Shown here: positions 42,116-58,872 of the stretch, piece by piece | Numbering within the stretch: position 1 is the first letter of the stretch | Layout: the number at the start of each line of letters is the position of its first letter | Source of the DNA: Streptomyces sp. NBC_00525 | GTDB lineage: Bacteria > Actinomycetota > Actinomycetes > Streptomycetales > Streptomycetaceae | Length of the DNA stretch: 64,000 nt | NCBI RefSeq assembly: GCF_036346595.1 | Contig: NZ_CP107834.1 | Location: 6,076,001-6,140,000, forward strand | Direction: 5' to 3' | Translations under genes and position numbers: made by a program | Notes under the pieces: generated by a model | What the model was told of the DNA's origin: nothing | Databases searched by the model: none | The model's input: the letters and a program-made list of their open reading frames with translations, nothing else

Positions 42116-42458
42116 CCCCGGCCGGGCGCCCGCCGTGGACGCCCGGCCGCCGCATCACCCGTAAGAGCCCCTTCGATCACATGTGCCCTTTGAGCGCGTC
42201 GCGGGGCGATTCTTCCGTGTTCTTCCGTGCCGTCACTCCCCGCACACGCGTGAAGGCGGTGCGTGTAAAAACTCGTGAGTGTATTACCGCTGGAGCGCTC
42301 GCGCAGGGGGTTGGAGGAATGTGCGAAAGCACTGATTCGATCTGACTAAGCTCACGCGCTGTGCAACCGAGTTGAGATGAATTCGCGTGCTTGTTCCCTT
42401 CATGCACACAAGCGCCGAATCTCCGGAATACAGCCCGAATCAACCGCCAGAGGTTCAG
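42116..42458. other. Long upstream region of the conservon
   Basis: These 343 bases hold no gene I can support. They are richer in A+T than the surroundings and contain a tandem 10-mer TTCTTCCGTG at 42210-42229, a run GTGTAAAAACTCGTGAGTGT near 42261-42280, and TCTGACTAAGCT near 42341. This is probably a complex promoter region for the conservon. Confidence 0.5.
42210..42229 (+). repeat. Tandem 10-bp direct repeat upstream of the conservon
   Basis: TTCTTCCGTG occurs twice head to tail. It may be a binding site for a regulator or a chance duplication. Confidence 0.55.
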
Positions 42459-44081
42459 ATGGCCCGTGTTGAATCACCGCCGGCCGGACGGGAAGCCCCC
42501 GTCGCCCGCGCCCTGTTGCTACCCGTCGTCGTGATGGCGGGAGCGACCACCGCCGCCGCGGCGCTGGTCGCCGAGCCCGCGCGGATACCAGTCGTCTGGT
42601 GCGGAGTCTTCGCCACCGTCGTCGTCGCCGCGCTCGCCGTGGAGATCGCCCGCCGGGGCCGCACGATCCGCCGCCGCAACGCCGAGTACCAGCGGCGTCT
42701 CACCGCCCTGGAACGGCGCATCGCCGACCACGACGAGGAGACCGTACGCATCAGCAAGGAGCTGCTGCCGGCCGCCATCCACCGTTTGCGCGTGGGCAAC
42801 TCGCCCGACGAGGTGCTGCGCGACGTGGTCGACGCCGACCCGGTCTACCGCCACCTCTCCGACCCGCAGCGCTCCCTCGTCTACACGGTCCTCGACATCA
42901 TCGACAACGAGGAGGCGACCCGCGACTCGGCGCAGCGCGCCTTCGTCAACGTCGCCCGCCGCGTCCAGGCGATCGTCAACCGACAGGCCAGTGAGCTGCG
43001 GGAGATGGAGGAGCACCACGGGCGCAACCCCGACGTCTTCGACGACCTGCTCCGCATCGACCACGGCACCGCGCTGATCGGCCGGCTCGCCGACTCCATC
43101 GCCGTGCTCGGCGGCGCCCGCCCCAGCCGCCAGTGGCCCAAGCCCGTACCGCTGTTCAGCGTGCTGCGCGGCGCCATGTCGCGCATCCTGGAGTACCCGC
43201 GCATCGATCTGCACTCGATCGCCAAGGTCGCCATCATCGGCACCGCGGTCGAACCGCTCATCCACGCCTGCGCCGAACTCCTCGACAACGCCACCCGCTA
43301 CTCGCCGCCGCAGACCCGGGTGCACGTCACCGCGGTCGAGGTGCAGACCGGCATCGCCATCGAGATCGAGGACGGCGGCGTCAGCCTCAGCGAGGAGGCC
43401 CGCGCCCGCGCCGAGAACATGCTCGCCAGGGCCCAGGCAGGCTCCAGCATGAACGACCTCGGCGAGGCCCCGCGCCTCGGCATGGCCGTCGTCGGGCGCC
43501 TCGCCCGGATGTACGACCTCCAGGTCTCGCTGCGCCAGTCCGCGTACGGCGGTGTCCGCGCGGTGCTCATCGTGCCCCGCGCCATGGTCACCACCGGCCC
43601 GGCGCCCGGCATCGCCCACGGCATCGGCGCCACCTCGCGGCCCACCAGCGACATCGACCTCTCCGACCTGCAGCACGTCGTGCCGCCGCGTGGCAAGCGG
43701 CGCAAGCCCAAGCCCGCGGTCGCCGCCCGCCCCGCCACCGGCCCGGTCGTCTCCGACACCAGGCCGGCCGCCCCCACCGCCGCCCTGGAGGACGACGTGC
43801 CCGTCGTCACCGAATGGACCGCGGGCGGCCTCCCGCAGCGCCGCAGCCGGGGCCGCGCCCCGCTGGGTTCGCACAACCTCCCCGCCCAGGCCGCCGACCC
43901 CATGGCCGGCCGCACCAACGGCCACGGCTACGGCCACGGCCCCGCCCAGGGGGGCAACAGCACGGAACCGCCTCCCGGCATCTGGCTGGAGGCGTTCACC
44001 AAGGCCGCCAACGGCGTGCCCCAGGAGCCCGGGGCGGACGACGCCCCTGACGACGCGTGGGACAAGGGAGATCAGCAGTGA
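42459..44081 (+). CDS. rarA: Conservon sensor-like protein CvnA (RarA type)
   Basis: A 540-residue membrane histidine-kinase-like protein. Two membrane helices (~17-37 and ~44-64) are followed by a helical region and a HATPase_c domain with N box HACAELLDNATRYSPP and a late GxG-type loop LGEAPRLGMAVVGRLA. No clear phospho-accepting His block is present, as usual for CvnA. A long Pro/Ala/Arg-rich tail (~400-540) follows. CvnA-D are proposed to form a membrane signalling complex resembling eukaryotic G-protein systems; in S. coelicolor the rar set affects aerial growth. The ATG at 42459 is chosen for GAGG five bases before it; ATG 42402 would add 19 residues. Confidence 0.88.
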   Translation: MARVESPPAGREAPVARALLLPVVVMAGATTAAAALVAEPARIPVVWCGVFATVVVAALAVEIARRGRTIRRRNAEYQRRLTALERRIADHDEETVRISKELLPAAIHRLRVGNSPDEVLRDVVDADPVYRHLSDPQRSLVYTVLDIIDNEEATRDSAQRAFVNVARRVQAIVNRQASELREMEEHHGRNPDVFDDLLRIDHGTALIGRLADSIAVLGGARPSRQWPKPVPLFSVLRGAMSRILEYPRIDLHSIAKVAIIGTAVEPLIHACAELLDNATRYSPPQTRVHVTAVEVQTGIAIEIEDGGVSLSEEARARAENMLARAQAGSSMNDLGEAPRLGMAVVGRLARMYDLQVSLRQSAYGGVRAVLIVPRAMVTTGPAPGIAHGIGATSRPTSDIDLSDLQHVVPPRGKRRKPKPAVAARPATGPVVSDTRPAAPTAALEDDVPVVTEWTAGGLPQRRSRGRAPLGSHNLPAQAADPMAGRTNGHGYGHGPAQGGNSTEPPPGIWLEAFTKAANGVPQEPGADDAPDDAWDKGDQQ

Positions 44082-44485
44082 TCCAGCAGCGCGGCAACAT
44101 GGACTGGATGCTCAAGGAGCTCGCCGACGACGTCCCGGACATCCACCAGATCGTCGTCCTCTCGGCGGACGGCCTGCGCATCGCCCAGCACGGCGGCGAC
44201 CCCGACGTCGCCGACCGGCTCGCGGCGGCGTGCGCCGGACTGCAGAGCCTGGCGGCGGCCGTCGCCACCGAGATCCCGTACAGCGACGGCCGGATGCGGC
44301 TCGTCGTCATCGAGGTCACCGGCGGCTTCTTCTACCTGATGGCAGCGGGCACCGGCGCCTACCTCGCGGTGCTCGCCGGGGAGACGGTGGACGCCGGACA
44401 CGTCGGCGCGCGGATGCGCGACATGGTCGCCCGCATCGGCGGCCATCTCACGAGCCCGCCCCGCCACGACGGGCAGCCCGGATGA
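44078..44485 (+). CDS. rarB: Conservon roadblock/LC7 protein CvnB (RarB type)
   Basis: A 135-residue roadblock/LC7 domain protein. The start region MDWMLKELADDVPDIHQIVVLSADGLRIA and middle GGFFYLMAAGTGAYLAVLA are typical. Roadblock proteins often act as partners that regulate small GTPases, here CvnD. The GTG at 44078 overlaps the CvnA stop (GTGA) with AAGGGAG upstream, and the stop overlaps the CvnC start (ATGA). Confidence 0.92.
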   Translation: MIQQRGNMDWMLKELADDVPDIHQIVVLSADGLRIAQHGGDPDVADRLAAACAGLQSLAAAVATEIPYSDGRMRLVVIEVTGGFFYLMAAGTGAYLAVLAGETVDAGHVGARMRDMVARIGGHLTSPPRHDGQPG

Positions 44486-44853
44486 AGTCTCCCCGAAGAG
44501 AACGCCGGAAGGCGGACCCGGCGCTGAGCGATCCGGAACGGCTCTACGTCATCACCGGCGATCCCGACGACGGAGAGCGGGCCGCGCTCGACCTGGTCAC
44601 GATGATCGTCTCGAAGTCCGAGCCGTCCCCGACCGTCCAGCCCGAGCAGGCCGTGATCCTGCGGCTCTGCCAGGCCCCGTTATCCGTCGCGGAACTCTCC
44701 GCCTACCTCAGCCTCCCGTTCAGCGTGGTGACCTCGCTCCTCACCGAACTCCTCGCCACCGGACTGATCGAATCGCGCGCGCCGATCGTGCGCGCGACCC
44801 TCCCGGACCGGTCCCTCCTCGAAGCGGTGATGCATGGACTTCAGAAACTCTGA
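44482..44853 (+). CDS. rarC: Conservon DUF742 protein CvnC (RarC type), contains a TTA codon
   Basis: A 123-residue DUF742 protein, probably a winged-helix adaptor of the conservon complex (RLYVITGDPDD, ILRLCQAPLSVAELSAYLSLP, VVTSLLTELLATGLI). Leucine 67, in QAPLSV, is encoded by TTA at 44680-44682, the rare codon read by the bldA tRNA in Streptomyces. I found no other in-frame TTA in the genes of this window. The ATG overlaps the CvnB stop, and its own end overlaps CvnD by 20 bp. Confidence 0.92.
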   Translation: MKSPRRERRKADPALSDPERLYVITGDPDDGERAALDLVTMIVSKSEPSPTVQPEQAVILRLCQAPLSVAELSAYLSLPFSVVTSLLTELLATGLIESRAPIVRATLPDRSLLEAVMHGLQKL

Positions 44854-45448
44854 CACGATCACGGGCCCCCGCAGCGAGGACGTCCTGCCCACCACGGCCA
44901 CCGCCGCGGTGAAGGTCGTGATCGTCGGGGGGTTCGGGGCCGGCAAGACGACCATGGTCGGCTCGGTCAGCGAGATCCGGCCGCTGACCACCGAAGAGAC
45001 CATGACGCAGGCCGGGATCGGCGTCGACGACAACTACGGGGTGGAGAGCAAGACCGCCACCACCGTCGCCATGGACTTCGGCCGGATCAGCATCAGCGAC
45101 GAGCTGATCCTCTACCTCTTCGGCACCCCCGGCCAGGAGCGGTTCTGGTTCCTCTGGAACGGCCTGTTCGAGGGCGCCCTCGGCGCCGTCGTCCTCATCG
45201 ACACCCGGCGGCTCGAAGTCAGCTTCGACGTCATCGGACGCCTGGAGGAGCGCGGCGTGCCGTTCGTCGTCGCCATCAACAGCTTCCCCGACGCCCCGAA
45301 GCACCCCGTCGAAGCGCTGCGCAGTGCCCTGGACCTCCCGGACGAGGTCCCGATAATCGACTGCGACGCCCGGCTGCGCGTCTCCAGCCGCGATGTGCTG
45401 ATGACCCTGATGCGCTACCTGCACAGTCTGGCCCTCCCACGCGCCTGA
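44834..45448 (+). CDS. rarD: Conservon GTP-binding protein CvnD (RarD type)
   Basis: A 204-residue small GTPase-like protein. The P-loop GGFGAGKT is at 32-39 and G3 is GTPGQE from residue 97. The G4 position reads AINSFP instead of NKxD, which is normal for the CvnD group. Switch I lies near RPLTTEETMTQAG. It is thought to cycle on the membrane complex of CvnA-C. The ATG at 44834 lies within the end of CvnC, so translation is coupled. Confidence 0.93.
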   Translation: MDFRNSDTITGPRSEDVLPTTATAAVKVVIVGGFGAGKTTMVGSVSEIRPLTTEETMTQAGIGVDDNYGVESKTATTVAMDFGRISISDELILYLFGTPGQERFWFLWNGLFEGALGAVVLIDTRRLEVSFDVIGRLEERGVPFVVAINSFPDAPKHPVEALRSALDLPDEVPIIDCDARLRVSSRDVLMTLMRYLHSLALPRA

Positions 45449-45538
45449 CCCGCCCGCGCACCCTCCCGAACCCGTCCCGCGCGTTCCCCCACCGCGCCCC
45501 CGACCGTCCGGCCCCGCGGCCGGACTCCTGGAGCGATC

Positions 45539-47119
45539 GTGACAAGCCCCTTCCCCTACGAGCACGGCCAGGACACCGCGCCGGTCCCGCCCCCCGAATG
45601 CCCGGCCCACGGCCTGGGCGTCGGCCCCGGCGGACTGCGCCGGATGTACGGCCCCGAGGCCGAACAGGACCCGCACGGCCTGTACGAGAAGCTGCGCGCC
45701 GAACACGGCACGGTGGCCCCCGTCCTGCTGCACGGCGACGTGCCCGCCTGGCTGGTCCTCGGCCACAGCGAGAACCTGCACATGACCCGTACGCCCTCGC
45801 AGTTCTCCCGTGACTCCCGCCACTGGTGGGCGCTGCAGGACGGCACCATCGCCCCCGACCACCCGCTCGCCCCGCAGGTCGCCTGGCAGCCGATCTGCGC
45901 CTTCGCGGACGGCGCCACCCACGAGCGCCAGCGCGGCGCCCTCACCGACTCCATCGCCCGCATCGACACCCGCGGCGTCCGGCGCCACATCAACCGCTAC
46001 AGCAACCGGCTCGTCAACGGCTTCTGCCGGGAGGGCCGCACCGACCTCGTCGCCGAGTTCGCCGAACGGCTGCCCATGATGGTCATGTGCGCCGTCCTCG
46101 GGATGCCGGAGGAGTCCAACGACCGGATGGTGCAGGCCGCCCGTGACATGATCAAGGGCACCGCCACCGCCGTCCAGAGCAACGCCTACATGGTGGACGT
46201 GCTGAGCCGCCTCGTGGAGCGCCGCCGCCGCGAGCCCGCCGACGACTTCGCCACCTGGCTCGTCGAACACCCCGCCGCCATGAACGACAAGGAGGTGGCC
46301 GAGCATCTGCGGCTCATGCTCATCGTCTCCTACGAGACGACCACCAACCTGATCGCCAACGTGCTGCGCATGGTCCTCACCGACCCCCGCTTCCGCTCCC
46401 GGCTCAGCGGCGGCCACATGACCGTGCCCGAGGCGGTCGAGCAGACCCTGTGGGACGAGCCGCCGTTCGCCGCGATCCTGGGCCGCTGGGCGGTCGGCGA
46501 CACGGAACTGGGCGGCCAGCACATCAAGGCCGGCGACGCGCTGATCGTCGGCATCACGGCGGCCAACACCGACCCGGTGGTACGTCCCGACCTCAAGGCC
46601 GACATGGCGGGCAACCGCGCCCACCTCGCGTTCAGCGGCGGCCCCCACGAGTGCCCCGGCCAGGACATCGGGCGCGCCATCGCCGACGTCGGCGTCGAGG
46701 CGCTGCTGATGCGCCTGCCCGACCTCGAACTCGCGGTCGAGGAGAGCGAACTGCGCTGGGTCGGCAACCTGGTCAGCCGTCACCTGGCCGAACTCCCCGC
46801 CGAATTCGCGGCCCGCGCCCCGCAGGACGACCGCCGGCCGCCGTCCATGGGCAAGCCCACCGCCGCCCGCCGGGACTGGGAGGTCCAGTCCGCCGTACGG
46901 CACGCCGCCCCGACCCCGGTCCGGGCCCACCTGCCCTCCGACCAGGCCCACGCCCCCGCCCGCTCCGGCCCGTCCGGCGCGACCGCCACCGTCGACGGCT
47001 CGGCGGACGTGACCGGCGCGGCGGGCGAGAACGCCGCCGGCCTGGTCCCGCGCCAGCGCAAGCCCGGCGCGCCCGCCCGGCTCTGGAGCGTCGTCTCCCG
47101 CTGGTGGAACGGCGACTGA
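45539..47119 (+). CDS. rarE: Conservon cytochrome P450, CYP157 type (RarE)
   Basis: A 526-residue P450. The haem signature is FSGGPHECPG with Cys ~372. The K-helix reads EQTLW, so the ExxR arginine is missing, a known trait of the CYP157 family to which S. coelicolor RarE (CYP157A) belongs. The I-helix region IVSYETTTN is also unusual. After the P450 fold (ends near residue 425) comes a ~100-residue Ala/Pro/Arg-rich tail with no clear domain. The GTG at 45539 has GGAG before it and lies 90 bp after CvnD. Its chemistry is unknown. Confidence 0.88.
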   Translation: MTSPFPYEHGQDTAPVPPPECPAHGLGVGPGGLRRMYGPEAEQDPHGLYEKLRAEHGTVAPVLLHGDVPAWLVLGHSENLHMTRTPSQFSRDSRHWWALQDGTIAPDHPLAPQVAWQPICAFADGATHERQRGALTDSIARIDTRGVRRHINRYSNRLVNGFCREGRTDLVAEFAERLPMMVMCAVLGMPEESNDRMVQAARDMIKGTATAVQSNAYMVDVLSRLVERRRREPADDFATWLVEHPAAMNDKEVAEHLRLMLIVSYETTTNLIANVLRMVLTDPRFRSRLSGGHMTVPEAVEQTLWDEPPFAAILGRWAVGDTELGGQHIKAGDALIVGITAANTDPVVRPDLKADMAGNRAHLAFSGGPHECPGQDIGRAIADVGVEALLMRLPDLELAVEESELRWVGNLVSRHLAELPAEFAARAPQDDRRPPSMGKPTAARRDWEVQSAVRHAAPTPVRAHLPSDQAHAPARSGPSGATATVDGSADVTGAAGENAAGLVPRQRKPGAPARLWSVVSRWWNGD

Positions 47120-48563: not shown

Positions 48564-50756
48564 TCAGGGGAGCCGGGCCGGGTGTACGGGGTGGTGCCCG
48601 CCCGGTCCCGCTCCCGGCCCCGGTCCCGGTCCCGGCCCCTCGGCGGCGAGGAGTTCGCCGCTCACCAGCAGGTGCAGCTGCGCCTCCAGCCAGGCGGCGA
48701 CCCGCGCCGACCCGTCCGGCGCGGCCGACCTGCCCGGTCCGTCCGTACCGTCCGTACCGTTCGTATCGTCAGTACCGGCCGTACCGGCCGCCGGGTCGAG
48801 CACCGTACGGAGCAGGGCCGCCGCCCGCCCGAGCCCCGTCCGGCGCAGCGCGGTGGCGGCGTCGCCGATCCGGGCCAGGACCGGCCCGGACGGACTGCGT
48901 AGCCCCCCGTGGGCCAGCGCGGCCAGCGCGGCCACCGCCTCCTCCAGCGCGGCCGTCAGCGGGTCCGCCGCCCGCCGCGCCACCGGGGCCAGGGCCGCCG
49001 CCCCGTTACCGGGCGCGAGATCGGGCACCGTCACCCCGTCCGGCGTCAGCACGGCGATCGGGTCGATCCGTATCCCGCCGCCCTCCCGGACCACCGCACC
49101 GCTCACATGCGTGGCCCCCCGCCGCAGCACGTCGGCCAGCGCGTCCAGCGCGCCGGGGCACCCCGGCCGGTACTCCGAGGCCAGCAGCGCGCGGTTCCCC
49201 GCCGCGTCCCGCACCACCGCCTCCAGGCGCTGCTCGCCGGCGTCGTACCCGACCTCCTCGACTCGGGACAGGGCGACCACGCGGACCGCCCCGGCCGCCA
49301 CCCGGGGCCGGATCAGCCGGGGCGGCCGGCCGTACCAGGAGGCGATGAGCGCGGCCAGGTCCCCGACCAGCAGCGGGGGCGGCAGCCGGGTCCAGGAGCT
49401 GCCGACCGGGGTGACCCCGGTGGCGCCGAGCCGGCCGCGGACGATCGTCAGGGTGCGCCCCGCGGTGCGCCGGACGCTCTCGCTGACGAGGGTGCCGGTG
49501 GCGAGCGCGCCCAGCGTGGTGGAGAGCAGCCGGCGCTGCGCGAGCGCGTGGCCGGTGAGGCGCTGGGGCCACTCCTTGCGGAGCACCAGGACGCTGCCGG
49601 CGTGGGGGTGGGCGAAGTACACCTCGGCGACCGGGGTCTCGACGGGGCCGGTGATCCGGCAGCCGAGCGCGGTGAGCCGGACCTGGCGCAGCGGCGTCTC
49701 CGCGGCCTCGTCCGTGCCCAGGACGCCGGGCACGGCGGCGGCCAGCCGCCGGGCGTGCACCTCGGTGAGCAGCGCCGCGACCAGCTCCGGGCGGTGGGCG
49801 GCGCCCCGGTCGGCGTAGGCGGAGAGCTGCCCGGCCAGCTCCGCCAGGGCCGCGGCGGGCCAGTGGTACGCGTCGCGCGCGAGCGCCCGGCCCGCCCGGT
49901 CGACGGCCCCGGCGAGCACGGGCCCCGCCTGGGCGACACCGTCGAGCAGCAACTCCTCGACGAGGCCGGCCGCGGCATCCAGGCTGCCCGCGCCCCCGGA
50001 CGGGGCCCGCGGGGGCGCCGGGGCCTCGGCCGGCGGGGGAGCCGGTGTCGCCGTACGGCCGGGCGCACCGGCCCCGGCGGCCCGCTCGCCCCCCACCCGG
50101 ACGGTGGCCGCGCGCTCCGCCGCCCCTGCTGTTCGCGCTGCCTCCGGTGTCCCCGCCGCCTCCGCGTCGGCGGCGCGGAACGCCCAGACGGCGAGCGCGA
50201 CGACCTCGGCGCGCAGCGCGGCGGAGGCGTCCGTGGTGGCGTAGCCGATCTCGCCGGGCACCGGGAACCGCACCGTGCACGCGGGCAGTTCCACCCAGGG
50301 CTCGGGGCGCCCGGCGGTGGGCCGGTGCACCACGGCCTCGTAGCCCCGCCGCAGCGTGCGCCGGGCGGCGGCGACCGGGCGGGCGCCGAGCGCCCCGGTG
50401 AGCGTGTCGTCGTCGATCGTGCCCGGCGACCACTCGACGGGCGGCCGGGGCGCCGGGGACGGCGCGTCGGCGGCCAGGCGCCGGTAGGCGAGGACGAGCG
50501 CGATCAGATGGCGGCACACCCCGGTCGCGGCGCAGTCGCACCGGCCGTCGTCCAGACCGGTGCCGGCGGGCAGCACGGCGGCCGTGCCGTCGGGGAAGAC
50601 CGCCCGCACCGAGGCGTCGTCGCCGGTCGTCAGCTCCGGAACCGTGCCCGCGTCCAGGTCCTTCGCGGCGCGTTTGACGAGTCCCCGGTTGGCGAGCGCG
50701 GCCAGGGCCTCGGGGGTGAGGGCCAGCAGATCGGCCCTGGGGGCCGGCGCGGTCAT
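48564..50756 (-). CDS. SWIM zinc-finger protein (YehQ-like)
   Basis: A 730-residue protein. The SWIM motif CDC-(5)-CRH uses Cys73, Cys75, Cys81 and His83, and probably binds nucleic acid or protein. The rest is a large Ala/Arg/Leu-rich region with a low-complexity Pro/Ala linker at ~225-275, and a C-terminal Gly/Pro run GPGPGPGPGAGPGG. It is the last gene of a five-gene operon; its ATG overlaps the stop of the vWA gene (ATGA). The order matches E. coli yehQ beside yehP. The open frame continues upstream but is a shadow of the vWA gene. Function unknown. Confidence 0.85.
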   Translation of the reverse strand: MTAPAPRADLLALTPEALAALANRGLVKRAAKDLDAGTVPELTTGDDASVRAVFPDGTAAVLPAGTGLDDGRCDCAATGVCRHLIALVLAYRRLAADAPSPAPRPPVEWSPGTIDDDTLTGALGARPVAAARRTLRRGYEAVVHRPTAGRPEPWVELPACTVRFPVPGEIGYATTDASAALRAEVVALAVWAFRAADAEAAGTPEAARTAGAAERAATVRVGGERAAGAGAPGRTATPAPPPAEAPAPPRAPSGGAGSLDAAAGLVEELLLDGVAQAGPVLAGAVDRAGRALARDAYHWPAAALAELAGQLSAYADRGAAHRPELVAALLTEVHARRLAAAVPGVLGTDEAAETPLRQVRLTALGCRITGPVETPVAEVYFAHPHAGSVLVLRKEWPQRLTGHALAQRRLLSTTLGALATGTLVSESVRRTAGRTLTIVRGRLGATGVTPVGSSWTRLPPPLLVGDLAALIASWYGRPPRLIRPRVAAGAVRVVALSRVEEVGYDAGEQRLEAVVRDAAGNRALLASEYRPGCPGALDALADVLRRGATHVSGAVVREGGGIRIDPIAVLTPDGVTVPDLAPGNGAAALAPVARRAADPLTAALEEAVAALAALAHGGLRSPSGPVLARIGDAATALRRTGLGRAAALLRTVLDPAAGTAGTDDTNGTDGTDGPGRSAAPDGSARVAAWLEAQLHLLVSGELLAAEGPGPGPGPGAGPGGHHPVHPARLP

Positions 50757-51922
50757 CGGCCCAGCCTCTCCGCGACGAACTCCGCCAGCCGGCCGGGCGT
50801 CATCGCCCCGATGTGCGCACCGGCCTCGGCGAGCCGGCCGGCCAGCTCCCGGTCGTAGTCCGGGTTCGCGTCCTCGTCCAGGGCGGCCAGGCCGAGCACG
50901 GTGGTGCCCTGCTCCACGAGCGCGCGCACGGTGCGGCGCAGCCGGTGGGCGTCGCCGCCCTCGTAGAAGTCGGTGATCAGCGCGACGATCGCGCGGCGCG
51001 GGTTCTCCACCAGATCGGCCGCGTAGGCGACGGCCCGTGCGATGTCCGTACCGCCGCCGAGCTGCACCTTCATCAGCAGCTCCACCGGGTCCGTCACATC
51101 GGCCGTCAGGTCGACCACGTTGCTGTCGAACGCGACGAGATGCGTCTTCAGACCGGGGAGGCCCCAGAGGCAGGCGGCCGTGACGGCGGAGTGGATCACG
51201 GAACCGGCCATCGAGCCGGACTGGTCGACCAGCAGGACGAGCTGCCACCGCGTCACCTGCCGCCGGGTGCGCGAGTGGAAGTGGGGCCGCTCGATGAGCA
51301 GGCGCCCCTGGTCCGGCCGGTAGTGCGCCAGATTGGCCCGTACGGTCCGCCGGAAGTCGAAGTTCCGGGCGAGCGGGGTACGGCTGGGGCGGCGCGAGCG
51401 GGTGCCGTGGAAGGCATGCCGGACCTCGGGGCGGAGCCGGGCGAGGAGCTGTGCGACGACGGACTCGACGATGCGCCGGGCCGCGTGCAGCACCTGCGGG
51501 TTCATCAGATGCTTGGTCCGCAGCACGGCGCGCAGCAGCGTGGCGCTCGGTTCGACCCGCTCCAGCACCTCCGGATCGGTGACGATCTCCTCGATGCCGT
51601 ACCGCTCGACGGCGTCCCGCTCCAGCCGTTCGACGGTCTCTTGGGGAAACAGCCGGTGGATGTCGTCGAGCCAGTCCACGGCGGTCACCGGGGAGGGGCC
51701 GGAGCCGCCCGCGCGCGGGGCGGCCGAACCGGAGCGGCGCACGCCCCGCCGGGCGAGGTCGGGATCGCGCCCGTACAGCCAGTCGAGCGCGGCGTCCTGC
51801 CCGGTCCGGCCGGGCCCGAGCGGGCCCGTGTGCCGTTCGGCGGGCGAGCCGAGCACGAGGCGCCACCGTTCCAGGCCGGCGTCCTGCGGGGAGCCGGGGT
51901 CGGGGGTGAGGGGCCCGGTCAT
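50753..51922 (-). CDS. Cytoplasmic vWA-domain protein (YehP-like), MoxR partner
   Basis: A 389-residue protein without a signal peptide. The C-terminal half (~225-385) is a vWA domain with metal site LLVDQSGSMAGS, Thr loop GGGTDIARA and ALITDFYEGG. The N-terminal half is alpha-helical and contains RLFPQETVERLERDAVERYG, as in YehP proteins. vWA proteins of this kind are usual partners of MoxR AAA ATPases, coupling ATP use to remodelling or metal-dependent assembly. It overlaps its neighbours at both ends (ATGA). Target unknown. Confidence 0.9.
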   Translation of the reverse strand: MTGPLTPDPGSPQDAGLERWRLVLGSPAERHTGPLGPGRTGQDAALDWLYGRDPDLARRGVRRSGSAAPRAGGSGPSPVTAVDWLDDIHRLFPQETVERLERDAVERYGIEEIVTDPEVLERVEPSATLLRAVLRTKHLMNPQVLHAARRIVESVVAQLLARLRPEVRHAFHGTRSRRPSRTPLARNFDFRRTVRANLAHYRPDQGRLLIERPHFHSRTRRQVTRWQLVLLVDQSGSMAGSVIHSAVTAACLWGLPGLKTHLVAFDSNVVDLTADVTDPVELLMKVQLGGGTDIARAVAYAADLVENPRRAIVALITDFYEGGDAHRLRRTVRALVEQGTTVLGLAALDEDANPDYDRELAGRLAEAGAHIGAMTPGRLAEFVAERLGR

Positions 51923-54261
51923 GAGGGGGTTCCTCCGAGTCCGTAGCGGGTGAGCAGGCCGGTCACGCGGTTCTCCAGGGCTCCGGCGCGGGCGATCAGC
52001 AAGGGGTCGGCGGTGGTCCGCAGCAGGGCGCGCGACGAGCCCCGCAGCCCGCGCCGGGCCAGCAGCCGCCCGGCGATCCGCTCCCGCTCCCGTGGCGGGA
52101 AGAACGCGAACGCCTGCCGCAACGCGGGCAGCCCGGCCAGGAACGCCTCCTCGGACAACTCGCACAGCACGTCGTCCAGCACCCCGACGAGCGAGGCGCC
52201 CCCACGGCCCGGACCGTCCGCATCGCCGCCGCTCGTCAGCTCGTCGCGGGCCACCGCGAACAGGCCGGCGAGCCAGTCTCCCAGGGCGTCCGCACCCGAC
52301 AGGGCCACCGCCCGCACCGCCTTCTCCGGGGCGTCCGCCTCCGCCGGCCCCTCCGCGAGCACCTGGTGCAGGCCGAACGCGGCGCCCCGGACATCGAGGG
52401 GCGCCGCCGCGTCCCGGCCGATGCGGCGGGCGACCGCGGCCACCACGTCCCGGCCGGTGGCGAGCAGGTCCGGGGCGTGCAGCACCGCGTCCCGGACCGC
52501 GACCACGGCGCGCAGCCGGGGCAGGTCCACGCCGCCCGCGCCCCGTACGCCCTCCAGGAGCCACAGCAGCCGGTCCGTGGCCCCGCTGATCACCGCGGCC
52601 AGCAGGGGACCCCGGGCGACCCCGTAGATCCGGTCGTGGCGCCACAGGCCCAGCGCGGTGGCCAGGACGCTGCCGAGCGGGCCCGCGTGGACCAGCACGC
52701 GCACCCGGGCGCCCAGGTCGGCCAGCAGCCGCGCGGACAGGCCGCTCACCCCGCAGAGCACCGCGTCGAACAGCACGGCGGCCGGCGCCCCCGCCTCCTC
52801 CTCGCGCCGGACCCGCTCGGCGAGCGACGCGGCCGCCGCCTCCTCCAGGGTCGCGCCGTGGGCGCCCGCCTCCACCAGGGCCGCGTCGCGCCCGGCCGCG
52901 GAGCGGGGCTCCCAGCGCTCGGTGAACACCGGATCGACGCCGTGGGCCGGGCCCGCCGTCCGCTCGTGGCCGGGAACGCCGAGGACCCGCAGCCCGTGGA
53001 GCGCCCGGCTGCGCTCCAGGTCCCGGGCGTCCGTGAGGTCCAGCTCCACGGTGCGCGGCGCGCCGGACAGGCCGAGCCGCTCCAGCCGGGCCGCCACGTC
53101 GTGGACGAGCGGCGGGGCCGGGGTGTCGGGGTGCAGCCGGCCGACGCGCCCACCGCCGCAGGCCGCGAGGATCTCGACGACCACGGGGTGGGTGCCCTCG
53201 CGGAGCGCGCCCCGGACCGTCCACGGCAGCGGGCCGTCCAGATCGTCGGTGATCAATGCGCCCGCCAGACCGTCCAGCACATCGATCCGCGCCGTCCGGG
53301 GATGGCCGCGCAGCGCCGTCAGACCCTCCGTCAGACTGCGGGCCGCGACGAGGTCCGCCGTCGAGACCGGCACCTTGCGCGCCCGCAGCCGCTCGACCAC
53401 CGCCCGCAGCAGCCGGTCCGCCGCCTCCTGCGGGCCCCGCTCCCACACGTCCTGGTAGAAGCCGGGGGACGGCATCCCCGACTCGTACCCGGTGAACGCG
53501 TCCAGCCGGCGGAACGAGTACGGCACGAGGAAACTCCCCGCGTCCGCCCCGGCCGGCGGCTGCGGCACCAGCGGCCAGCCGTCCGCACCGCACTCCGCGT
53601 CGCCCTCCCCGGCCGGGCCGTCCGGGGCCGCGAGCCTGCGCAGCGCGGGCTGATGGAAGCCGCCGGTCACCACCAGGACGGGCCTGCCGCCCGCCGAGGC
53701 CACCGCCGCCCGCACCCAGGAAGCCATGTACGCCTCGCGTGCCCGGTCCCCGGCGTCCGCCTCCGCGTCGCCGCGCACCAGCGCGAAGTAGGCGTCGAGC
53801 CGTTCCGCGACGTCCTCGTCCGGCCCGACCTCGAACAGCCGGTCCCACAGCGCGTCCGGCGAATCCACCGCGAACCGCCGGCACAGCCGCTCCGTGGCCT
53901 CGGCGTACCGGACCTCCGCGTCGGCGTACCGGTTGCCGCGCTCCGCGAACGCCGGGTGCCAGGCGGGCAGGTCGATGAAGCGGACCTCCGCGCCCGCCGC
54001 CCGGCCCGCCCGCAGCGCCACCCACTCCGGGGAGTAGTCGCACAGCGGGGCCCAGGACGTGGCCGCGCGCCGCCCGTCGCGGTAGTGGCTGAACACCGCG
54101 ACGGGCAGCTCGTGGCCGAGGAGCAGCTCGTCCAGCCGGGCGTTCATCTCCGCCGGCCCCTCGACCAGGACATGGGCGGGGCGCAGCCGCTCCACCGTGC
54201 GCTCGACGAGCCGGGCGCAGGCGGGGGAGTGGTGGCGCACACCCAGGAACACGGCGGTCAT
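51919..54261 (-). CDS. DUF5682 family protein (YehM-like)
   Basis: A 780-residue protein of the DUF5682 family. The start VFLGVRHHSPACARLV is the family hallmark, followed by HVLVEGPAEMNARLDELL, SHYRDGRRAATSWAPLCDYSPEW and VLVVTGGFHQPALRRL. The first ~200 residues resemble the TraB/erythromycin-esterase-like fold, with His, Glu and Asp at conserved places, hinting at a hydrolytic site. The remainder is alpha-helical. It sits between MoxR and vWA genes with ATGA overlaps on both sides. The ATG at 54261 is set by that overlap. No function is known. Confidence 0.87.
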   Translation of the reverse strand: MTAVFLGVRHHSPACARLVERTVERLRPAHVLVEGPAEMNARLDELLLGHELPVAVFSHYRDGRRAATSWAPLCDYSPEWVALRAGRAAGAEVRFIDLPAWHPAFAERGNRYADAEVRYAEATERLCRRFAVDSPDALWDRLFEVGPDEDVAERLDAYFALVRGDAEADAGDRAREAYMASWVRAAVASAGGRPVLVVTGGFHQPALRRLAAPDGPAGEGDAECGADGWPLVPQPPAGADAGSFLVPYSFRRLDAFTGYESGMPSPGFYQDVWERGPQEAADRLLRAVVERLRARKVPVSTADLVAARSLTEGLTALRGHPRTARIDVLDGLAGALITDDLDGPLPWTVRGALREGTHPVVVEILAACGGGRVGRLHPDTPAPPLVHDVAARLERLGLSGAPRTVELDLTDARDLERSRALHGLRVLGVPGHERTAGPAHGVDPVFTERWEPRSAAGRDAALVEAGAHGATLEEAAAASLAERVRREEEAGAPAAVLFDAVLCGVSGLSARLLADLGARVRVLVHAGPLGSVLATALGLWRHDRIYGVARGPLLAAVISGATDRLLWLLEGVRGAGGVDLPRLRAVVAVRDAVLHAPDLLATGRDVVAAVARRIGRDAAAPLDVRGAAFGLHQVLAEGPAEADAPEKAVRAVALSGADALGDWLAGLFAVARDELTSGGDADGPGRGGASLVGVLDDVLCELSEEAFLAGLPALRQAFAFFPPRERERIAGRLLARRGLRGSSRALLRTTADPLLIARAGALENRVTGLLTRYGLGGTPS

Positions 54262-55385
54262 CAGCCGTCCAGCAGATGGCGTGCGTCGTACAGGGCCTGC
54301 CACTGCGGGGTGCGCCGGCGCCCCGCCTGCTGCTCCAGATAGCGCCGCAGCCGGGCCAGGTCGTCCGGGCTGTCCTTGGCCGCCGTGCCCGCGAGACAGG
54401 CGACGACATCGGCCGCGTTGCCCGGCTCGCCGCGCAGATACCAGCCGCGCACCCCCACCGCGTGGGCCACCGACACCGCCTCCGCCGTACTCATCACCGC
54501 CGTGGGCCGGTCACCGCACCCGCCGCGCCCGTCCTGCGCCCCGGCGCCCGCCCGCAGTTCGCGGAACGTGGCGACCAGGACCTCCAGCACGTCCCGGTCG
54601 GGCGGCGGCTCCACCCCGGAGTTCGCCAGCAGCCGGGCCACCTCGGCCTCCACCAGCTCCAGTTCGGTGTCGAGGTCGGGGATCGGGAACACCGTCTCGA
54701 AGTTGAACCGGCGCTTGAGCGCCGCGCTCATCTCGTTGACGCCCCGATCGCGGGTGTTGGCCGTCGCGATGACGTTGAACCCCTGCCGGGCGAAGACCAT
54801 GCTGTCCGGGCCGGGCAGTTCGGGGATCGCCACGACCCGCTCCGAGAGCAGCGACAGCAGCGAGTCCTGCACCTCCAGCGGACAGCGGGTGATCTCCTCG
54901 AAGCGGACGAGCCGTCCCTCCGCCATGCCGCGCAGCATCGGCGCGGGCACGAGGGAGCGGGGCGAGGGCCCCTCGGCGACCAGCAGCGCGTAGTTCCAGC
55001 CGTACTTGATCTGGTCCTCGGTGGTGGCGGCCCCGCCCTGCACGGTGAGCGTCGAATCCCCGCTGACGGCGGCCGCGATCAGCTCGGACAGCAGCGACTT
55101 GGCCGTGCCCGGCTCGCCCACGAGCATCAGCCCCCGGCTGGTCGCCAGCGTCACCAGCGCCCGGTCCACGAGCGAGGGATTGCCGACGAACTTCCGGCCG
55201 ATCCCCGCCTCCGGGTCCCCGACGACGAAGCGCCGCGCGGCGCGCAGGCTCAGCTCCCAGCCCGGCGGCCGGGGATCGCGGTCCGCCTCCCGCAGCGCGG
55301 CCAGCTCGGCCGCGTACCGCACCTCGGCCGGCGGCCGCTGCACCCGGACCGCCGCTTGCGTGGCGGCCTCCTCGCGCACCGTCAT
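54261..55385 (-). CDS. MoxR-type AAA+ ATPase (YehL-like)
   Basis: A 374-residue AAA+ protein. Walker A is GEPGTAKS (90-97). Walker B is LVRFEEI, with Glu in place of the usual Asp. Sensor 1 is IATANTRD (Asn210), and the Arg-finger region is AALKRRFNFE. The C-terminal lid is short. MoxR ATPases act as chaperones, often with vWA partners. The ATG at 55385 overlaps the DUF4132 stop and the TGA overlaps the DUF5682 start. It is the only recognisable NTPase of the operon and probably powers the system. Confidence 0.92.
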   Translation of the reverse strand: MTVREEAATQAAVRVQRPPAEVRYAAELAALREADRDPRPPGWELSLRAARRFVVGDPEAGIGRKFVGNPSLVDRALVTLATSRGLMLVGEPGTAKSLLSELIAAAVSGDSTLTVQGGAATTEDQIKYGWNYALLVAEGPSPRSLVPAPMLRGMAEGRLVRFEEITRCPLEVQDSLLSLLSERVVAIPELPGPDSMVFARQGFNVIATANTRDRGVNEMSAALKRRFNFETVFPIPDLDTELELVEAEVARLLANSGVEPPPDRDVLEVLVATFRELRAGAGAQDGRGGCGDRPTAVMSTAEAVSVAHAVGVRGWYLRGEPGNAADVVACLAGTAAKDSPDDLARLRRYLEQQAGRRRTPQWQALYDARHLLDG

Positions 55386-58300
55386 GCCGCGGCGCCCTCG
55401 GTGAGCGCGGTCAGGTCCGCCAGGAGCTCGGACGTCGTCACCGCGTCCAGCTCGCCGAACCGCAGGTCGTGGGGGCGGCCGTGCCAGTAGTCGGACGGGT
55501 CCTCGGCCAGCCAGACGGTCTCCAGGACCTGTTCGGGGAACATGTCGACCATCCCGACGGCGATGCCCTCGTCCAGGGCGATCACCAGATGGCGGTGGTC
55601 CGCCAGCCGCTTGGAGATCCACCGCTCCACGCCGTTGTCCAGCGGCGTCCCGCGCCGCCAGCCGAACCGCTCCAGACCGAGGAGCCGGCCCGTGGGGACC
55701 TTGATGCCCTCGAAGCGGGTCATCCGGTGGCCGGCCGCCTCCTCGTCGGTCAGCGCGAACACCGGGCGCCCGAGCTGCGGGAACGGCTGCAGGATCTCGT
55801 AGTCCGCGAACACCTCCGACCAGTCGGTCACCGCCCCGCCCAGGTCCAGCGGATGGGCCGCCCGCACGGACGCCCCCTCGGGCAGCTCGAAGGTGTCGTC
55901 CTCGACGTCCGCGAACGTCCGGTCCTCCGCCACCCGGAACGCCGTGGCCGTCCCGTCCGCCTCGCTCAGCCACACCAGCCGGCGCACCAGGTGCCACATC
56001 AGCGGATGGCCGACGAACAGCTCGGCGAACTCCTGCGCCGTCCAGGACCGGCCCGCCACCATGGCGGCCTCCAGCCGGCGCACCTGGTCCGACGCGATCG
56101 TCCGGACGTCCTTCTTCAGCGCCATGAACCGCTTGCGCTCGGCCGGCGCCAGTTCGGCGTCGTCCCGGACGCCCGGCTTCGGGAGGTCCTTGCGGCGCTT
56201 GCCGTCCCCGTCCAGGACGTAGGGCCGCAACTGCTCGTCGAAGCCCACCGTGAACGTACGGCCGCCGTAGTCGATGACGGTGGAACCGTCCGCGTCCAGG
56301 CCCAGATCGGGCACCAGCCGGTCCGAGAGCTGTTCGCCCGTCAGCCCCAGGCCCGCCGCCACCTCGGCGATCTTCTCCGCGGCCCGCACCTTGAGCGCCT
56401 TGAACTTCACCCGCTGGGAGATCCCGTGCAGATGGAGCAGGGCCGTGTCGCTGCCGATCGCCGCCAGGACGCTCAGCCCCTCCACCGCGCGGTGATGGGC
56501 GTTCTCACCGGGCCAGGCCCGGATCACCGGCGTCAGCCGGCGCACCGTGTCGTCGTTGCCCAGCACTCCCAGCGCGTACAGCGTCCAGGACTCCTTGGCG
56601 GGCAGGAGCGCACCGCGCCACTGCTCGAACAGCGCCCAGGCGAACGCGGCGGCCGAGGCCGGGTCCACCGTGCGCAGCACATCGGCGAGCCCCGGATACG
56701 GCTCGCCCGGCTTGGACAGGGCCAGCATCGTCACGACATGGCGGACCGACTCGTCCGGCAGGGCCCCGCCCGACGCGACCTCGATCTGCGGCAGCAGCAC
56801 CGGGTCCGCCCAGTCCGGCAGGGCCGGCATCGTGGCGGGCAGGGCCCGCTCCAGCGGATCGGCGGCCAGCAGCGCGGCCACCGCCTCCGCCGCCTGCTTC
56901 CCGTACCCCTCGGCGGCGGCGCGGACCACCGAGTCGCCGTGCGAGGCGGCGATCAGGCGCAGCGCCTGCTCGGCGGCGCGCCGGGCGGCACCGGCCTTGC
57001 CGACGGCGTCGGGCACCAGCAGCGGCGCCGCCCGCACGCCGTGCCGCTCGAACCAGGAGCGGGCCACCACGGCCGCGGACTTGAGCCGCACCGACCAGTC
57101 GGCCATGTGCCGGGCGATCCGCGCGTCGACGAACGGCAGCAGCAGCGGGGCCAGCCCGCCGGGCTGGCGCGGCACCACGCGCAGCAGCAGGGGCAGGGCA
57201 TCGAGGCCGAAGCGGGCGGCCACCGGCTTGAGCGTGTCGAGGCCGTCCCACAGGTCGGTCGGGTCCCAGCCGGCGAGCAGCGGCGCGACGAGCTCCTCGG
57301 GTCCGTGGACGTAGATCCACGCGGAGCGCAGATTCGGCTCGTTGAGCCCGTAGCGGGCCGAGGTCAGCACCCGCTCCCAGTCGTCCACCGCATCCCGCCG
57401 GGTGTACCAGCTTTCGGTGGCCGCCCAGTCCTCCCGCTCGCCGGCCCGCCACAGCAGGGCGGGTTCGTCCGCGGCCGTCAGGCCGGTGACCATCGCGGGC
57501 TTGGCCTTGCTCCGGGGCCGGGTCCACGGCGGGCTGGTCAGCACGGCCGGCAGGGCGTCGGCGGGGGCGTCCGCGATGCGGTTCGCCGGGTGCAGCAGGG
57601 GTTCGACGATCTCCGCCAGGCCGGCGTCCAGCGTCGGCAGCACCTCCGCCACCAGGTCGCGGTGGGCGGCGATGTGCGCGGGGAGCAGCCCGGCCGACGT
57701 GGTCGCCGGGAGGCCCGCCCGGTCGCGGGCGTCGGCGGCGAGCAGCCGCAGCGCGCGGACCGGATAGCGGCGCATCGCCTCCAGCAGCGCCGGGCGGCAG
57801 TTCTTGTCGTCCGAGTGGTCGAGCAGGGCGGTGAATGCCTCGTCCGTGGGGAACTCGACGAGCGCGTCGGCGATATCCCTCATCCAGGTCCCGTAGAAGC
57901 GCCCGCCGCGCAGCTCCGCGACCAGCATGGGGGCGAGCGCCGAGCCGATGCCCTCGGCGGCGGTGGCGATCACGGCGGCGGTCCGGTCGAAGCCGCTGGT
58001 GTGGGTGAAGTGGGCGGCCTGCTCCGGTGAGTTCAGCGAGCAGAGAACGAGGGAGAGCAGACCGGCATCGGTCGTGCCGGCGGTCTTCGGGTCCGTGCAC
58101 AGCTCGGCGACCCAGCCGGACTCGCTCGGCGCCAGAAAGGCCGTGATCGCCTTGCGCGAGGAGTCGGTGCGGCAGGCGGCGAGCGCCTCGACCGTGGCCC
58201 GGTAGGTCTCGTCGCCGGCGGCGGCGATCAGCGTGCGCAGCCGGTCGGCGGCCACCCGGCTGTAGTGCCCGGACGCGGTCTCGTACGCCTCGGTCCGCGC

Positions 58301-58762
58301 CTCCAGCCACGGGTCGTGGCGGGCGCCGCCGGTCTGCGTGTAGTGCGGCTCGGTCATGAACAGCTCCACCGCGGCGCGGGCGGCGAACGGCAGTCCGTGC
58401 AGCCGGACCCAGCTGTCGGCCCAGGCACCCGGCGGAGGCGAGTACATCCCGACGATCGAGGCCACGGCCGCCGCGCCGGCGGGCGACGGATCGCCGTCCA
58501 GATGGCGGCGGACCTCCGCGACGAGGACCTGGTCACTGCCCGGCGCGTCCAGGAACTGCCCGATCCAGGCCCGCTCCTCGGCCGTCCGCGCCGCGATCGT
58601 GTCGAGCAGTTCCGCCTCCACCCGGGCGGGCGCGCGCTTGATGCCGCCGCGCCGGGGGATGACCAGGCGCTGCCAGCGGTCCGGGAAGACGAAGGTGTTC
58701 TCGTCGGCCCCCGCCGTCCCGGCTCGCGACGCACCGTTCTCGACAGCATGCTCGGTACCCAC
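55382..58762 (-). CDS. DUF4132 domain protein (YehI/MolR-like), first gene of the operon
   Basis: An 1126-residue protein, largely alpha-helical and probably solenoid-like through the first ~800 residues. The C-terminal DUF4132 domain is marked by KRFMALKKDVRTIASDQVRRLE, SWTAQEFAELFVGHPLMWHLVRRLVW and the following beta-rich region with FPQLGRPVFAL. Related E. coli proteins are YehI and MolR. The GTG at 58762 starts the message; GGGGGCGG lies upstream. It may act as the large scaffold or recogniser of the MoxR system; that is inference. Confidence 0.88.
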   Translation of the reverse strand: MGTEHAVENGASRAGTAGADENTFVFPDRWQRLVIPRRGGIKRAPARVEAELLDTIAARTAEERAWIGQFLDAPGSDQVLVAEVRRHLDGDPSPAGAAAVASIVGMYSPPPGAWADSWVRLHGLPFAARAAVELFMTEPHYTQTGGARHDPWLEARTEAYETASGHYSRVAADRLRTLIAAAGDETYRATVEALAACRTDSSRKAITAFLAPSESGWVAELCTDPKTAGTTDAGLLSLVLCSLNSPEQAAHFTHTSGFDRTAAVIATAAEGIGSALAPMLVAELRGGRFYGTWMRDIADALVEFPTDEAFTALLDHSDDKNCRPALLEAMRRYPVRALRLLAADARDRAGLPATTSAGLLPAHIAAHRDLVAEVLPTLDAGLAEIVEPLLHPANRIADAPADALPAVLTSPPWTRPRSKAKPAMVTGLTAADEPALLWRAGEREDWAATESWYTRRDAVDDWERVLTSARYGLNEPNLRSAWIYVHGPEELVAPLLAGWDPTDLWDGLDTLKPVAARFGLDALPLLLRVVPRQPGGLAPLLLPFVDARIARHMADWSVRLKSAAVVARSWFERHGVRAAPLLVPDAVGKAGAARRAAEQALRLIAASHGDSVVRAAAEGYGKQAAEAVAALLAADPLERALPATMPALPDWADPVLLPQIEVASGGALPDESVRHVVTMLALSKPGEPYPGLADVLRTVDPASAAAFAWALFEQWRGALLPAKESWTLYALGVLGNDDTVRRLTPVIRAWPGENAHHRAVEGLSVLAAIGSDTALLHLHGISQRVKFKALKVRAAEKIAEVAAGLGLTGEQLSDRLVPDLGLDADGSTVIDYGGRTFTVGFDEQLRPYVLDGDGKRRKDLPKPGVRDDAELAPAERKRFMALKKDVRTIASDQVRRLEAAMVAGRSWTAQEFAELFVGHPLMWHLVRRLVWLSEADGTATAFRVAEDRTFADVEDDTFELPEGASVRAAHPLDLGGAVTDWSEVFADYEILQPFPQLGRPVFALTDEEAAGHRMTRFEGIKVPTGRLLGLERFGWRRGTPLDNGVERWISKRLADHRHLVIALDEGIAVGMVDMFPEQVLETVWLAEDPSDYWHGRPHDLRFGELDAVTTSELLADLTALTEGAAA

Positions 58763-58813: not shown

Positions 58814-58844
58814 TCAGTGGTTCCACAGTAGAACCGACCACTGA
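58814..58844. promoter_or_regulatory. Nested palindrome upstream of the DUF4132-MoxR operon
   Basis: TCAGTGGT (58814-58821) and ACCACTGA (58837-58844) form a perfect 8-bp inverted repeat. Within it GGTTC and GAACC form a second one around CACAGTA. On the minus strand the centre holds TACTGT, a possible -10. It is a candidate operator for the five-gene operon, 52 bp upstream of its start. Confidence 0.5.
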
Positions 58845-58872
58845 CAACGGAGGGTGACCGGGGGGGGGCTGG

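Follow-up and report, generated by a model that had tools for sequence, protein, structure and literature searches.

A five-gene MoxR/vWA operon of Streptomyces, collinear with the Escherichia coli yeh set, lies behind a RecA-NDp-type promoter and is a candidate damage-induced remodelling machine

YehL of Escherichia coli has been named as a MoxR subfamily (PMC3893208), and the five yeh names appear together in the deletion list of a genome-reduced strain, DGF-298, which is without yehI to yehQ, so that their loss is viable (PMC10652928). In E. coli, molR immediately precedes yehI (PMC10652928), and molR is among the listed LexA-regulated genes (PMC11039860). The Deinococcus radiodurans operon drA0165-drA0166, in which drA0166 carries DUF4132, is targeted by DdrO (box at -83), and mitomycin C is reported to induce tagged DRA0166 in a way that depends on IrrE and DdrO (PMC8533742). 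Here we describe a five-gene set on the minus strand (58762-48564) of a 64,000-nucleotide stretch of the 7.1-Mb assembly of Streptomyces sp. NBC_00525, referred to as the window. The genes encode, in order, a DUF4132 protein, a MoxR ATPase, a DUF5682 protein, a vWA protein and a SWIM protein. The set lies behind an exact match to a promoter motif of the RecA-independent DNA damage response, and its best explanation overall, to which we assign a probability of roughly 0.6, is a damage-induced MoxR/vWA remodelling machine.

The original prediction for this locus, made without database searches, proposed a coherent NTP-dependent five-gene system common to Streptomyces and E. coli. Gene order and identities agree with this proposal: the yeh set that it named is correct (the K-12 order being yehI, yehK, yehL, yehM, yehP, yehQ), and the window operon is collinear with yehI-L-M-P-Q, with identities of 33, 63, 36, 59 and 29%, respectively. 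The prediction missed the damage promoter, the sister architectures and the links to LexA and DdrO, and the connection with defence that it raised fared poorly, as detailed below. The promoter site, the five genes and their motifs are located as follows.

58825..58847, minus strand: RecA-NDp / PafBC-type promoter site TTGTCAGTG-GTCGGTTC-TACTGT (8-nt spacer), exact consensus match
55382..58762, minus strand: DUF4132 protein, yehI orthologue, 1126 amino acids (Pfam PF13569, 212 bits)
55658..56203, minus strand: Pfam DUF4132 domain, residues 854-1035 (Pfam)
54261..55385, minus strand: MoxR AAA+ ATPase, YehL subfamily, 374 amino acids (Pfam AAA_5, 118 bits)
55095..55118, minus strand: Walker A GEPGTAKS of MoxR (motif reading)
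51919..54261, minus strand: DUF5682 protein, yehM orthologue, 780 amino acids (Pfam, 334 bits)
54223..54237, minus strand: RHHSP motif (residues 9-13), start of the DUF5682 alpha/beta domain (motif reading)
50753..51922, minus strand: VWA_CoxE protein, yehP orthologue, 389 amino acids (Pfam VWA_CoxE, 194 bits)
51209..51226, minus strand: metal-ion-dependent adhesion site (MIDAS) motif DQSGSM of vWA (motif reading)
48564..50756, minus strand: SWIM protein, yehQ orthologue, 730 amino acids (alignment to YehQ and motif)
50508..50540, minus strand: SWIM motif CDCAATGVCRH, residues 73-83 (motif reading)

The motif tTGTCRgtg-8nt-TannnT is the consensus of mycobacterial damage genes that are independent of LexA/RecA (PMC5656591), and PafBC works through the RecA-NDp motif (PMC6789036). 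The window site lies on the operon strand 63 bp upstream of the DUF4132 start and matches the consensus exactly, which places it among sites of the PafBC-regulon type; there is no second site within one mismatch in the window. Genome-wide we count 24 exact sites as against 0 for the reversed pattern, one at the window operon (type I in the classification given below) and one at a type II locus. Twenty of the other 22 were followed to the next gene using Pfam on the frame chosen by coding score (L135 and L144, in our numbering of loci, were left out). Nine of these 20 genes match the Pfam families of UDG, RuvC, a RecD2-like protein, UvrB, O6-methylguanine methyltransferase, DnaX, DnaN, XseA and RecA; with this share of repair and replication families, the site evidently marks a damage regulon in this genome. 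The other 11 comprise one Cas3 gene, one transposase, four genes of other named families and five with no Pfam family. The gene with the Cas3 HD domain directly follows its exact RecA-NDp site (L143, C1:5432119-5434119 of the same genome), a hint at damage-regulated CRISPR genes in this strain. Elsewhere in the genus, the UV-inducible S. coelicolor gene SCO6735 has been reported with a RecA-NDp promoter upstream (PMC5087735).

To follow site and operon across species we used the best 80 of at least 570 MoxR relatives from a species-genome scan, all actinobacterial by title. Of the sites found in these loci, 15 of the 17 exact and 19 of the 26 one-mismatch ones lie on the strand of DUF4132 or MoxR and no more than 500 bp upstream of either gene, in a region that makes up 2.4% of the sequence (76,134 of 3,169,014 positions); there the reversed motif gave 0 hits and three shuffles 0, 0 and 2. 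By group, the site is present in 22 of 25 Streptomyces loci (14 exact) and in two of three from Kitasatospora and Yinghuangia. A looser form of the motif occurs in 25 of the 52 loci of other families (28 sites vs 1.35 expected), and for its six-letter variant the reversed and two shuffled controls gave none. One locus that lacks the site, L098, is uninformative because its contig is cut inside DUF4132. SOS control in Actinobacteria was considered as well: CGAACN4GTTCG with at most one mismatch is found in 4 of 79 upstream regions, which we take as chance.

Four related architectures are built in Streptomyces on MoxR and vWA with DUF5682, the latter diverged in one of them. Type I, in which DUF4132 and SWIM stand around MoxR-DUF5682-vWA, comprises the window, E. 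coli and Iodobacter (L088); in its Sinorhizobium (L083) and Agrobacterium (L165) members DUF4132 lies between DUF5682 and vWA. Type II combines SWIM-DUF5691 with MoxR-DUF5682-vWA and occurs in Deinococcus (L085), Rhizobium (L086, L167, L168) and Hymenobacter (L087); in Streptomyces its SWIM-DUF5691 and MoxR-DUF5682-vWA halves are divergent, a split that suggests a recognition half and a remodelling half, respectively. Type III consists of a short DUF4132 protein, a 1640-amino acid protein, MoxR, a DUF5682-vWA fusion and a 623-amino acid SWIM-motif protein, and the fusion suggests that vWA and DUF5682 act together. In two Kitasatospora type I loci, too, a single frame spans DUF5682 and vWA (L021:11065-14697, L026:11065-14766), resembling the type III fusion. 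Type IV is vWA-MoxR with a diverged DUF5682 that passed the cut-off used in five of eight loci; a SWIM protein was identified in none of the eight.

MoxR of these types (E <= 1e-60) is present at least once in 145 of 150 Streptomyces genomes, and the window's genome carries types I and II. By identity band, type I was assigned in 11 of the 150, type III in 57 and type IV in 34, with 12 and 8 loci read for the latter two; the remaining MoxR match, in 140 genomes, was assigned to type II by subtraction from match counts. All four architectures carry the damage site in most of the Streptomyces loci that could be read. In type I it is exact in 9 of 10 loci with upstream sequence (L113, whose contig begins inside DUF4132, was excluded), and in type II all 12 loci have an exact site on the side of SWIM-DUF5691 and 10 of the 12 a one-mismatch site on the side of MoxR. 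Type III has 8 exact and 2 one-mismatch sites among 12 loci, and type IV 6 and 2, respectively, among 8. These loci and the set of 80 overlap, with G249/L007, G258/L023 and G337/L004 apparently being the same genomes. In the type II locus of the window's own genome two sites stand back to back (L095:6809-6879, C1:4196808-4196878), exact toward SWIM-DUF5691 and one-mismatch toward MoxR; this pairing recurs in 10 of the 12 Streptomyces type II loci, L095 included.

Damage control recurs in other phyla under other regulators. The type II operon of Deinococcus taeanensis is preceded by TTATGTTTCTGGCGTAA, with 20 bp between the end of this sequence and the SWIM start; the sequence has two mismatches to the published radiation/desiccation response motif (RDRM) consensus and resembles the listed DdrO boxes (PMC8533742). 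Among four matches within three mismatches in L085 it is the best, two of the four being this site on either strand, and a shuffle control of the tighter pattern TTAYGN7CRTAA is not independent, since that pattern was devised with the site already known. In E. coli, a one-mismatch LexA core begins 25 bp before yehF, and we take it to be the published molR box. The gene yehF encodes a WGR protein and adjoins the DUF4132 pseudogene yehH in K-12, and in Sinorhizobium WGR is fused to DUF4132; WGR is a domain found in sensors of DNA breaks, PARP among them. This convergence of damage control in three phyla via three regulators, read from promoter sites in the Actinobacteria and in one Deinococcus and from the cited papers for E. 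coli and D. radiodurans, is in our view the strongest clue to function. Exact CTGTN8ACAG was not found in the Proteus and Iodobacter loci. A GTTCN7GTTC match 700 bp upstream of MoxR in Sinorhizobium has two others within 25 kb and was set aside as chance. The Rhizobium type II operons have an inverted repeat, TTTCTG-N11-CAGAAA, read by eye within about 60 bp upstream of SWIM (L167:3100-3199, L168:3110-3211), possibly the operator of an unknown regulator.

The five genes are tightly coupled. ATGA had been predicted at all four junctions; this is right for three, which are 4-base overlaps, while MoxR/DUF5682 is joined by TGATG with a 1-base overlap (in gene order: ATGA, TGATG, ATGA, ATGA). The overlaps behind the proposal of fixed protein ratios are thus real, although overlap alone does not prove such a ratio. 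Across the 80 loci the median gaps are -4, -1, -4 and -4 over 79, 75, 72 and 72 scorable junctions, of which 47, 39, 40 and 43, respectively, lie exactly at the median. The five families co-occur beyond chance: the order DUF4132-MoxR-DUF5682-vWA-SWIM is present with all five genes in 71 of the 80, a different order was found in none, and of the five it is DUF5682 that follows MoxR in every one of the 80. Six of the remaining loci end at a contig border after DUF5682; a vWA/SWIM match was not found in L023 and L028 despite room, nor a DUF4132 match in L078 (a larger tally of 86 adds six plasmid loci to the 80). L023 and L111 are one locus, with the damage site on the opposite strand, perhaps a decaying or rearranged copy. 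In a sample of 198 genomes of the phylum, DUF5682 occurs in 17, DUF4132 in 11 (one below the curated cut-off) and both in nine; eight of the nine are of the window's genus, and they are therefore not independent events. With a crude gene caller, at least two DUF4132 genes were scored in 24 of the 80 loci. Long DUF4132 match spans upstream of MoxR (L024, L036, L038, L039, L046 and others) suggest tandem genes, and pairs of DUF4132 genes are also seen in Iodobacter (two genes) and K-12 (yehH/yehI).

The proteins retain the motifs on which an ATP-driven machine would depend. MoxR is identical to YehL at 227 of 359 positions, and with an intact Walker A it qualifies as a YehL orthologue; sensor 1 (ATAN) is intact too, and its closest named match among the matches listed, at 99%, is the MoxR of Streptomyces sp. 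AC1-42W. The operon has the YehL-type layout, with a VWA_CoxE protein that carries a MIDAS motif, DUF5682 in between and the SWIM protein after. The DUF4132 protein aligns with YehI over its C-terminal half, and its structure model (predicted local distance difference test, pLDDT, 87.4) is a helical solenoid followed by a C-terminal alpha/beta domain, compatible with the scaffold role suggested earlier. In DUF5682 (model pLDDT 87.6), R9, H10, H11 and P13 of the RHHSP motif are invariant in nine sequences of types I-III, and further His, Asp and Glu residues are conserved. The notion that its N-terminus is TraB/esterase-like (a TIKI/TraB/EreA/ChaN-like domain) found weak fold support, a further search returning nothing at E <= 0.001. 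The SWIM protein has no Pfam match and was aligned to YehQ over residues 7 to 620 of 730. Converging on the operon end is a conservon-like run on the plus strand (window 42387-47116), recognised by eye from the translations: a large sensor-like frame, an LC7-like protein and a GTPase-like protein, then a cytochrome P450-like gene.

Together these observations suggest the following course of events. Damage would switch on transcription via the RecA-independent (PafBC) promoter, giving one shared message for all five proteins. The MoxR ring would provide ATP-driven force, with vWA linking it, via MIDAS, to DUF5682, a protein with an alpha/beta domain whose conserved His, Glu and Asp residues may have a catalytic role. 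Target recognition would fall to the SWIM zinc protein together with the DUF4132 solenoid; the probable targets, our best guess given SWIM, WGR and timing, are protein-DNA complexes that damage leaves behind. Composition, coupling, the intact Walker A, MIDAS and SWIM motifs, and the damage site in most Streptomyces loci and all four architectures are read directly from the sequence; induction in this strain, a complex of the proteins, DNA targeting and any enzymatic step are what we infer from them. We are confident that the operon is damage-regulated, and a MoxR/vWA remodelling activity is probable; action on nucleoprotein is a tentative proposal. A broader picture, which we consider improbable as a whole, would be a widespread and previously unrecognised DNA-damage module in which a MoxR/vWA ring, a SWIM/DUF4132 (or DUF5691) arm and a DUF5682 hydrolase pull apart or digest DNA-trapped proteins, LexA, DdrO or PafBC control having been gained independently across phyla.

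Several points weigh against a damage-induced machine that acts on DNA. SWIM domains can bind protein too. Outside the Streptomycetaceae the site is found within one mismatch in 10 of 52 loci, one of them exact; the type III loci L115 and L121 and the type II loci L100-L102 of other actinobacterial genera have none, and in L111, the tenth type I locus, it is on the other strand. In E. coli, the 21 kb covered contain 11 matches to CTGTN8ACAG with at most one mismatch, so the site before yehF carries weight only via the published listing of molR, and the alphaproteobacterial LexA box GTTCN7GTTC was not found next to the Rhizobium or Agrobacterium operons. The SCO6735 mutant was not clearly damage-sensitive (PMC5087735), and for S. 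venezuelae a first search is reported to have pointed to a lack of conservation of the PafBC motif known from M. smegmatis (PMC9380542). ClgR has also been reported to recognise this type of promoter (PMC5656591), and PafBC therefore need not be the regulator.

The original prediction placed the operon near conflict and defence systems, and an anti-phage system might take DNA damage as its alarm, act through DUF5682 as a toxic effector and sense through duplicated DUF4132 proteins. Such a system would fit the patchy occurrence of types I, III and IV in Streptomyces (11, 57 and 34 of 150), the crudely called DUF4132 duplications in 24 of 80 loci, the Cas3-like gene after a damage site in the same genome, an Iodobacter plasmid copy that adjoins a type I restriction system and the MoxR relatives (E <= 1e-60) in 38 of 72,556 plasmid records, several of them chromosome-sized. 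Defence was rejected as the main reading on database searches. PADLOC-DB 2.0.0 gave no confident match to the five proteins (best, IetA for MoxR, E 0.0043). In the flanks, represented by 120 of 224 selected proteins from 61 loci and taken without a control set, 32 PADLOC families had hits at E <= 1e-10 (many being helicase models that overlap), and no family among the 25 listed occurred in more than two of the 120. No MoxR homologue was found in viral contigs, and DUF5682 is present in one of 50,697 phage records, an unverified scaffold. This record, MT835988.1 (L089), is a 14-kb 'Bacteriophage sp.' faecal scaffold with MoxR-DUF5682-vWA, probably bacterial sequence filed as phage. Type II was assigned to 140 of 150 Streptomyces genomes, and yehL is found in 5171 of 5426 complete E. 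coli genomes, with 5181 of 5183 places chromosomal; such a frequent and chromosomal occurrence is unlike most defence systems. Little thus supports membership among conflict systems, and we hold this reading to be doubtful.

Slightly less doubtful, and still unlikely, is that the MoxR/vWA pair acts in the manner of NorQ/NorD as a cofactor-insertion machine or activase, maturing a metalloenzyme, perhaps DUF5682, for recovery from damage. Iron insertion into NO reductase requires NorQ/NorD (PMC9976466), the window's vWA belongs to the VWA_CoxE family, and DUF5682 offers conserved His, Asp and Glu residues and, in type III, a fusion to vWA. However, no outside neighbour recurs broadly in the 80 loci (crude gene calls, with clusters antisense within the operon put aside by eye), so that no partner metalloenzyme is seen, and the SWIM and DUF4132/DUF5691 proteins are left unexplained. 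A role in regulating molybdate metabolism, after the historic molR name of WGR/DUF4132 genes (PMC8533742), is very improbable: the accessible text of the same paper gives moeA and moeB as not differentially expressed under DdrO depletion, and in the protein of the window Pfam finds no regulator-type DNA-binding domain.

Regulation by a damage promoter is the new result here, the E. coli relatives being already known as an uncharacterised set. In line with the original prediction, we found no literature giving the set a function, nor any mention of DUF5682 or DUF5691, in a search largely without subscription papers and preprints, where earlier proposals may exist; DUF4132 is mentioned in three of the papers covered. 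A common damage signal under three regulators gives the YehL-branch set a physiological setting and makes it testable in standard laboratory strains. If the damage-induced remodelling machine is real, the bacterial response to DNA damage gains a large ATPase module, which would fit the listing of molR, named for molybdate, among SOS genes.

CbbQ-CbbO and CoxD-CoxE are MoxR/vWA pairs, as are RavA-ViaA and NorQ-NorD; to our knowledge, none of these comes with DUF5682, SWIM, DUF4132 or a damage promoter. RavA-ViaA and NorQ-NorD share with the window a MoxR ATPase and its vWA partner (PMC3893208, PMC9976466). MoxR and vWA are also shared with the MoxR-vWA-beta-propeller ternary conflict systems (eLife 2020, PMC7159879). 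The bpMoxR model scores 20.7 bits vs a cut-off of 27, no beta-propeller Pfam match was found in the five proteins, and the terms SWIM, DUF5682, DUF4132, YehL and TraB were not found in the accessible text of that paper. A further parallel is offered by drA0165-drA0166 and dr2173 of D. radiodurans, which stand for DUF4132 and WGR proteins controlled by DdrO (PMC8533742). The closest counterpart is the E. coli set, which in K-12 has the extra small gene yehK, the WGR gene yehF and the DUF4132 pseudogene yehH, and whose YehQ carries two SWIM motifs as against one in the window protein. It shares with the window the same five orthologues in the same order, but differs in its damage regulator, the adjoining molR being reported as LexA-regulated (PMC11039860).

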